NCBI RefSeq assembly: GCF_009745975.1
Contig: NZ_WHOL01000091.1
Coordinates: 56,173 to 120,172 of the forward strand
Length of the DNA: 64,000 bases
DNA from: Actinokineospora pegani
GTDB taxonomy: Bacteria; Actinomycetota; Actinomycetes; Mycobacteriales; Pseudonocardiaceae
Reading direction: 5' to 3'
A model generated the notes under the pieces. The model ran no database searches. It saw nothing but the letters and a program-made list of their open reading frames with translations, and was not told where the DNA came from. The translations under genes were made by a program, and so were the position numbers. Shown here in pieces: positions 310 to 8,419 of this stretch; within the stretch, counting starts at the first letter, position 1; each line of letters opens with the position of its first letter.

Positions 310-930
310 ATGTCCGACGCGGCGCCCCCCACCCCGGCCGACCCGGGGGAGGGGCAACCCACCGACCGGGTGTTGACCATCCCCAACGTGCTCAGCATCC
401 TGCGGCTGCTCGGCGTGCCCCTGTTCCTCTGGCTCCTGCTCGGCCCGCGGGCGGACGGTTGGGCCATCGCGGTCCTGATGTTCGCGGGCCTGTCCGACTG
501 GCTCGACGGCAAGATCGCCCGCTGGCTCAACCAGACCAGCAGGCTCGGCATGCTGCTCGACCCCGCCGCCGACCGGCTCTACACCCTGGCCACGATCCTC
601 GCGTTCGTCGTCCGCGACATCGTCCCCTGGTGGGTGGCGGCGGTGCTGATCGCCCGGGACCTCGTGGTCGCCCTGTGCATCGCGCTGCTGCGCCGCGGCG
701 GGTTCGCCCCGCCGGAGGTCACCTACATCGGCAAGGCCGCCACGTTCAACCTGATGTACGCCTTCCCGCTGCTCCTGCTCGCCCAGGGTTCCTCGGACCT
801 GGCCACCATCGCCCGTCCGATCGCGTACGCGATGGCCATCTGGGGCGGCGGCCTGTTCGTGTACTCGGGCCTGCTCTACGTGATCCAGACCCGGATGGCA
901 CTGCGCGGGCCCGTTCGCGCCGCCGGCTAA
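310..930 (+). CDS. CDP-alcohol phosphatidyltransferase (PgsA-like)
   Basis: This is a 206-residue integral membrane enzyme that transfers a phosphatidyl group from CDP-diacylglycerol to an alcohol such as glycerol phosphate. The family signature D-x2-D-G-x2-A-R-x8-G-x3-D-x3-D is intact near residues 61-86 (DWLDGKIAR, then GMLLDPAADR). Several hydrophobic segments surround it. The ATG has no clear Shine-Dalgarno, but TACGCT lies seven bases upstream and would serve as a -10 for a leaderless mRNA. Its place ahead of gcvH and garA matches M. tuberculosis pgsA2 (Rv1822). The exact alcohol substrate cannot be read from the sequence. Confidence 0.9.
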   Translation: MSDAAPPTPADPGEGQPTDRVLTIPNVLSILRLLGVPLFLWLLLGPRADGWAIAVLMFAGLSDWLDGKIARWLNQTSRLGMLLDPAADRLYTLATILAFVVRDIVPWWVAAVLIARDLVVALCIALLRRGGFAPPEVTYIGKAATFNLMYAFPLLLLAQGSSDLATIARPIAYAMAIWGGGLFVYSGLLYVIQTRMALRGPVRAAG

Positions 931-979
931 GCTTCCGCGCGCCCGGCTTGGCGGGCTCGTTTGCGAGAGGCGACCGACG

Positions 980-1360
980 GTGATTCCCGAAGAGCTCCAC
1001 TACACAGAAGAGCACGAGTGGGTGCAGGCGCGGACCGAGACGCTGGTGCGGGTCGGCGTCACCGAGCACGCCCAGCAGCAGTTGGGCGACGTCGTGCGCG
1101 TCCAGTTGCCCGAGGTCGGCGACCAGGTCGACCAGGGCGCGCCGGTCGGCGAGGTCGAGTCGACCACGGGCGTCGCCGAGCTGTTCGCGCCGCTGACCGG
1201 CGAGGTCGTGGCCGTCAACGACGAGGTGGTCCAGCAGCCCGAGCTGGTCAACTCCGACCCCTACGGCGAGGGCTGGCTGCTCGAGATCGCCGTGGACGAC
1301 CCCGACTCCGTCGACGCGCTGCTCGACGCCGAGGCGTACGGACCGCTCACACGCGGTTGA
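980..1360 (+). CDS. gcvH: Glycine cleavage system H protein, lipoyl lysine replaced by Thr
   Basis: At 126 residues this has normal GcvH length and the family features YTEEHEW at the start and VNSDPYGEGWLLEI near the C-terminus. H protein normally carries lipoate on a lysine in the motif ESxKxV and shuttles the aminomethyl group between P, T and L proteins. Here the motif reads GEVESTTGVAELFAP, so the acceptor at residue 63 is Thr (ACG at 1166-1168) instead of Lys (AAG). As written it could not be lipoylated at the canonical site. It sits 155 bp before garA, the same order as Rv1826-Rv1827. Family assignment is certain, but activity as a carrier is doubtful unless the base is a sequencing error or another gcvH exists. 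Confidence 0.93.
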   Translation: MIPEELHYTEEHEWVQARTETLVRVGVTEHAQQQLGDVVRVQLPEVGDQVDQGAPVGEVESTTGVAELFAPLTGEVVAVNDEVVQQPELVNSDPYGEGWLLEIAVDDPDSVDALLDAEAYGPLTRG

Positions 1361-4015: not shown

Positions 4016-4127
4016 GAGGGTTCGCTCGTTCGGGTGGTTTTTGGGATGAGCTGGGCTGGCGCGGCGTGAGGCTCCAAAAGTGATGCTGAAATGGCGTGGC
4101 TTGCTGTAAAGGTGCAGGTCAGTAAGT

Positions 4128-4388
4128 GTCCTCCCCGCGCAGGCGGGGCTGTTCCCCGCTCGAAACACAGCGCTACGAGCGTCACGAGGTCCTCCCCGCG
4201 CAGGCGGGGCTGTTCCCCGCTGGCTATCCAGCATCGACCTTGATTTCCGGTCCTCCCCGCGCAAGCGGGGCTGTTCCGGGCGAGGAAACGCCTCTCAAGG
4301 CCAACGACCAGTCTTCCCCGCGCAAGCGAGGCTGTTCCCCCGGTGAGCATCGGTGCGAAGTCTTCCCTGTGCGAACGGGGCTGGGTGG
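4128..4388. CRISPR. Short, decaying CRISPR array (type I-E-like repeats), no cas genes
   Basis: Five copies of a 29-nt repeat start at 4128, 4189, 4250, 4311 and 4360. The repeat begins GTCCTCCCCGCGC, has a palindromic core of CCCCGC and GCGGGG separated by a short loop, and ends CTGTTCCC. The first four units are exactly 61 nt apart (29 + 32 spacer), typical of type I-E. Repeats 1 and 2 are identical, while 3, 4 and 5 accumulate substitutions, and the last spacer is only 20 nt. Decay on the right puts the leader on the left; 4016-4127 is AT-richer than its surroundings. No cas gene occurs in the window. Confidence 0.88.

Positions 4389-5545: not shown

Positions 5546-8419
<2,874 letters not shown>

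Follow-up and report, generated by a model that had tools for sequence, protein, structure and literature searches.

A lipoyl lysine defines a working H-protein of the glycine cleavage system, yet proteins without this residue pass the curated score by which NCBI names GcvH. One such protein is encoded in the window, that is, in the whole stretch of 64,000 nucleotides analyzed here, which comes from the genome designated below as G000 (other G numbers denote comparison genomes). The question raised by this locus is whether the missing lysine is an error of the sequence, the mark of a gene on its way to deletion, or a property of a protein that is still kept for some other task.

The gcvH gene beside garA and its lipoyl loop

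The gene is located at positions 980-1360 of the forward strand (GTG start, stop codon at 1358-1360) and encodes a protein of 126 amino acids. The sequence agagg (966-970, forward strand), noticed by eye 9 nt 5' of the start codon, is a possible ribosome-binding site, as judged by the consensus. Downstream, on the same strand, lies garA/odhI (1516-1971; NF041660, 222.4 bits, cut-off 200), encoding an FHA protein. The gcvH product scores 143.4 bits against the NCBIfam gcvH model TIGR00527 (cut-off 115.85) and 134.2 bits against Pfam GCV_H (PF01597, cut-off 22.2). Its lipoyl loop, residues 60-66 (1157-1177, forward strand), reads ESTTGVA (in an extended reading, GEVESTTGVAELF), where relatives have ESTKSVS almost invariably, all seven columns being at least 99% invariant in 225 distinct garA-linked copies; these copies were selected for Lys63, and the unselected lysine counts are those of the sets of 161 and 80 copies described below. 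Both direct reading and alignment give ACG (Thr) for codon 63 (1166-1168), the position of the lipoyl lysine. The next three codons are GGC GTC GCC (Gly Val Ala, 1169-1177), with Gly at codon 64 (1169-1171) and Ala at codon 66 (1175-1177), both of which encode Ser in all 225 Lys-bearing garA-linked copies. The nearest relative, G004, has AAG TCC GTC TCC here, which amounts to four nucleotide differences within 1166-1177. As Ser64 and Ser66, invariant in the 225 relatives, are changed together with the lysine, the replacement is not a single-base error.

The entire protein contains no lysine; judging by its sequence, lipoylation is impossible at the canonical site, and no other lysine is there to take its place. 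Aminomethyl carriage with GcvP, GcvT, and Lpd requires lipoate on the H-protein; by this established chemistry, a protein with no lipoyl attachment site would be unable to serve glycine cleavage as a shuttle of aminomethyl groups. The gene does not qualify as a pseudogene, its frame being open from end to end and 25 of the 28 invariant residues being retained. Profile score and predicted fold (see below) are those of a GcvH, and Thr63 takes the place of the acceptor lysine of the ESxK motif.

The initial annotation of this DNA had already given the motif as ESTTGVAELF and placed Thr63 (ACG) at 1166-1168, named garA as the neighbor, and concluded that lipoylation at the canonical site was impossible, in agreement with our reading; the loss of Ser64 and Ser66 and the total absence of lysine are additions to it. 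Its further statement that all other GcvH features are intact holds for the invariant columns outside the loop, 21 of 21 being retained, but not for Ser64 and Ser66.

Other gcvH copies and glycine cleavage genes

Searched with Pfam GCV_H, the genome (6.44 Mb, 128 contigs, 99.4% complete) yielded three gcvH genes. The other two, located on other contigs, have kept the lysine: one (L001, ESTKSVSELF) belongs to a gcvT-gcvH-glyA operon, and one (L002, ESVKAVSEIY) is a lone gene on contig C64. The window gene is thus not the sole gcvH of the genome, and the initial annotation, which had suggested a backup copy and a search for it by the ESxK motif, was right on this point. The P-protein gene gcvP is found in the window as a stop-free open frame (5603-8392, forward strand, the bounds being those of the profile match converted to the window; TIGR00461, 1381 bits, cut-off 859.2). 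It is the only gcvP match in the genome, and each of the 16 genus genomes likewise gave a single gcvP match; for gcvT and lipB, one gene each scored above the cut-off in G000. The gcvT-gcvH-glyA operon with a Lys-bearing gcvH is present in 16 of 16 genus genomes. A set of P, T, and H is thus present in G000 without the window protein.

A third, lone Lys-bearing gcvH was seen in two of the 16 genus genomes, G000 (L002) and its sister G004 (L033, contig C18); the two share 51% identity.

Distribution of the garA-linked gcvH in the genus and the family

All 16 genomes of the genus have garA with a phosphatidyltransferase gene upstream, and in 12 of them a gcvH gene lies between the two. In the other four (G001, G007, G012, and G015) these conserved neighbors are close together, with no gcvH between them. 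Nine of the 12 copies carry Lys63, and three are full-length open frames lacking it, with the loops ESTTGVAELF (G000), DADD-TADLY (G002), and AADGATAEVV (G006). The garA-linked protein of G006, too, contains no lysine at all. The TIGR00527 scores of the other two lysine-less copies are 125.1 and 127.7 bits (cut-off 115.85). All three lysine-less proteins lie above the curated cut-offs of TIGR00527 and PF01597, and such models would name them GcvH.

In a tree of four flanking proteins, G000 is the sister of the Lys-bearing G004 (support 85/81) and G002 is the sister of G006 (86/92), the starred branches separating this pair from G000. The genus as a whole stands next to Saccharothrix, Umezawaea, and Lentzea in this tree, a position in keeping with Actinokineospora. 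Judging by the positions of the three copies on this tree, the lysine has been lost at least twice, once in G000 and once in the G002/G006 pair. For the pair, one loss before the split is the simpler and likely reading, and the two end branches would then be post-loss. Derived loop residues common to G002 and G006 are Ala61 and Ala66 in both alignments, plus Asp62 or Thr65 depending on the placement of the gap in G002; since Ala66 arose in G000 as well, it says little for a common loss. No new motif is common to the two lysine-less lineages. The initial annotation held that AAG in close relatives would overturn the loss. Lysine does occur in nine of the 12 garA-linked copies of the genus, which answers that test to the letter, but the loss stands: three codons are affected, and another lineage (G002, G006) has lost the lysine independently, with a different loop.

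For the family, 200 genomes were sampled, 10 from the genus and 190 others. The best gcvH match could be read in 124 of the 190, and all 124 had the lysine, 121 of them being seen beside garA. The remaining 66 genomes were approached via garA: one had no garA match, and in the 65 inspected we found a Lys-bearing gcvH beside garA in 40, a relic in two, and no gcvH match within about 1.5 kb of garA in 23 (23 of the 190 non-genus genomes). Outside the genus, then, the lysine is present wherever the loop of a garA-linked copy was readable (161 of 161), which rules out its loss as a family-wide trait. A named set of relatives, the best 80 among the matches listed and sharing some genomes with the set of 190, had Lys63 in 80 of 80, with garA near in 75. 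Among the family genomes examined, a full-length lysine-less garA-side copy was found in this genus only.

The two relics belong to one other genus (g20; genomes G071 and G167) and are in-frame sequences of 92 and 57 amino acids (L273, about 1106-1384, and L302, respectively). They keep the GTG start and the N-terminus DLRHTRERE and lack the lipoyl lysine; with 14 and 5 of the 28 invariant residues left, they are in advanced decay. As the sequences stand, loss of the garA-side gcvH is recurrent in the family, and the gene would be dispensable somewhere in it. The g20 relics are followed by a small open frame (MSIFQRLFGWLG...), which runs in frame into garA.

Position of the changes and predicted structure

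In the alignment of the 225 Lys-bearing copies, 28 columns reach an invariance of at least 99%, seven of them in the loop (60-66) and 21 elsewhere, column 126 having been dropped as an alignment-end artefact. The window protein departs from the invariant residue at three of the seven loop columns (63, 64, and 66) and at none of the 21 others; G002 departs at seven of seven and three of 21 (E13, L35, and V39), and G006 also at seven of seven and three of 21 (E13, A31, and E58). With Lys63 taken as given, this concentration in the loop has P = 0.043 for G000 and P = 0.00028 for each of G002 and G006, the last two values not being independent. E13 would correspond to Glu14 of the pea protein, the residue credited with holding the lipoyl arm in its loaded state. 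Outside the loop, 13 unique replacements were counted in G000 vs. four in its sister G004 (16 vs. four in all).

The H-protein fold of the window protein is predicted to be intact. An AlphaFold2 model, for which 35 named Lys-bearing relatives were aligned, has a mean pLDDT of 96.0, a value that shows compatibility with the fold and is no proof of stability; residue 63 is part of the turn that connects strands 55-61 and 65-69. The closest solved structures are the H-proteins of M. tuberculosis, T. thermophilus, and E. coli, with TM scores by query length of 0.93 to 3hgb and 0.96 to 3ift, and the best 22 structure matches are all H-proteins or GcvH-L.

Selection on the altered genes

Selection was analyzed with the GY94 codon model (F3x4, fixed species tree, code written for the analysis). 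With the loop removed, omega was 0.08 for the background, 0.07 for the G000 branch, and 0.15 when the end branches leading to G002 and G006 were pooled; omega = 1 was rejected for G000 (p = 1.3e-6) and for the two end branches (p = 8.1e-9), and equality with the background was not (p = 0.72 and 0.065, respectively). When the two end branches are considered one at a time, omega = 1 is rejected with p = 1.9e-5 for G006 but only with p = 0.02 for G002; the bound obtained for G002 by itself is loose, as omega = 0.6 is not rejected either (p = 0.058). In the codon fit of the G000 branch, omega = 0.15 was not rejected and 0.25 was. With the loop included, the lysine-less branches differ from the background (likelihood ratio test, p = 0.0042). 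As parsimony counts were less favorable than these fits, a second codon model, MG94, was also fitted. Outside the loop, the counts of synonymous and replacement changes were 7 and 8 in G000 vs. 12 and 3 in G004, and 12 and 14 in G006 vs. 5 and 3 in G009 (G011 serving as the third). MG94, which fitted better, gave omegas about twofold higher with the loop removed, namely 0.15 for the background, 0.17 for G000, and 0.27 for the G002/G006 end branches (p = 0.079 for the difference of the latter from the background), and neutrality was still rejected (p = 0.0014 for G000 and 3.1e-5 for the end branches jointly). Fits to trios with a free omega per branch reached boundary values on some branches and were left out.

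Control genes were run with GY94 only. For pgsA, omega was 0.28 on the G000 branch, with omega = 1 not rejected (p = 0.12) and a likelihood ratio test p of 0.002; garA gave p = 0.0047 (omega of 0.059 on the G002/G006 branches vs. 0.022), and the bifunctional nuclease gene gave p = 0.53. Branch differences are therefore not peculiar to gcvH, since pgsA and garA show them too, and an omega estimated for individual branches of one short gene should be read with caution. On these models, neutral evolution of gcvH outside the loop is rejected, with signs of some relaxation. The low omega of G000 may mostly predate the loss within that branch. If the lysine was lost before G002 and G006 diverged, the codon fits support continued selection on the remainder of the protein, with a stronger case for G006 than for G002, the loss in G000 being undated within its branch; all in all, the tests lean to retention, not decisively.

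Possible role of the lysine-less protein

The altered protein may serve a cofactor-free task or be on its way out. Its predicted intact fold and the rejection of neutrality outside the loop suggest that it is probably still kept; the g20 relics, which have lost much of the invariant sequence, offer a contrast. In the reading that we prefer, and to which we would give an even chance, glycine cleavage is served by the operon copy, and the protein encoded beside garA is a "pseudo-carrier" without lipoate that persists for the sake of binding. The loss of the lysine would be tolerated because the canonical operon GcvH can supply glycine cleavage, the Lys-bearing operon protein, together with the third, lone copy, presumably serving a system with a single GcvP. 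The lysine-less protein would then be kept for binding rather than chemistry, its likeliest role being that of a non-productive partner docked on GcvP or GcvT, which could tune or stabilize the system; a tie to the neighboring GarA may also exist. In a more far-reaching and rather unlikely version, a superfluous H-protein encoded beside garA would on two occasions in this genus have become a regulator without lipoate, which would bind GcvP/GcvT or a GarA-controlled lipoyl-dependent complex through its intact H-protein surface, with little more than the loop erased.

The chief and close rival for the window gene is slow decay, which we hold to be a serious possibility, somewhat short of an even chance: the operon gcvH would have taken over, the redundant garA-side copy would have lost its active site first, and deletion would lie ahead, the remaining conservation being a lag. 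The four genus genomes with no gcvH between the conserved neighbors, the 23 other family genomes with none matched beside garA, and the two with shrunken relics are in line with it, as are the greater amino-acid change in G000 than in its sister and the weak bound on the G002 end branch alone; the range of omega allowed by the codon fit of G000 is compatible with a recent loss, and decay in an early phase, after a recent loss of function, would fit the window gene. However, neutral change would hit the invariant sites evenly, whereas the observed changes are concentrated in the loop; moreover, the G002/G006 end branches, likely post-loss, jointly reject omega = 1, and none of the three lysine-less genes is truncated or interrupted. 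The otherwise intact H-protein sequence and predicted fold might suggest that the protein still works as a lipoyl carrier by way of a different lysine; this is rejected with near certainty, the proteins of G000 and G006 having no lysine to modify, unless lipoate were attached to some other residue or to the N-terminus. An artefact of sequencing or assembly at codon 63 could equally be suspected in a draft genome of 128 contigs, with one genome per species and AAG in the nearest relatives, but it has hardly any probability left in view of the four differences from G004 in 12 bases over three codons, the intact frame, and the second lysine-less lineage.

In pseudoenzymes, a catalytic residue is lost and the fold and sequence are otherwise kept; here, in contrast, the lost residue is the cofactor attachment site of a carrier, and a non-catalytic function is putative. 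The window protein resembles GcvH (TIGR00527, PF01597; 3ift and 3hgb of M. tuberculosis, 3a7l and 3ab9 of E. coli) in score, length class, predicted fold, and the position next to garA that is shared by most of the relatives compared, but has neither the lipoyl lysine nor Ser64, Ser66, or any lysine. LbpA lipoate-binding proteins of sulfur oxidizers are related to GcvH but act elsewhere than in glycine cleavage; their lipoyl lysine is strictly conserved, according to PMC6067878, and the window protein has none. Additional H-protein roles presented in portions of PMC9990993, PMC7868403, and PMC6067878 all involve lipoate. GcvH-L (S. pyogenes, 5a35) is an H-like protein with a name distinct from that of classic GcvH, but shares 22% identity with the window protein; the NCBIfam family not_gcvH (TIGR03077) is likewise H-like and named apart, but the window protein scores 67 bits against it, below the cut-off of 144.05. 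No H-protein without the lipoyl lysine appeared in the titles or abstract starts among the open-access literature matches listed, which is a weak negative. On its sequence features, the window protein is best classified as a GcvH paralogue whose function is uncertain, and not as a working GcvH. The genus provides a natural experiment at one locus, with a Lys-bearing copy in nine genomes, a lysine-less gene in three, and no gene in four, on the background of a Lys-bearing operon gcvH in all 16, and the locus makes it testable whether an H-protein has a function apart from lipoate.

Neighboring genes and a repeat array

The gene upstream of gcvH (310-930, forward strand) encodes a CDP-alcohol phosphatidyltransferase, matching the cardiolipin synthase ClsA model (NF053678, 269.2 bits, cut-off 240); its omega is raised on the G000 branch (0.28, omega = 1 not rejected). 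Farther downstream, between a MerR-type gene and gcvP, positions 4127-4383 contain a direct repeat of about 28 nt (GTCCTCCCCGCGCAGGCGGGGCTGTTCC) in four good copies, spaced at 61 nt, and a degenerate fifth; this array looks like a small CRISPR array, presumably of a type I-E-like kind.
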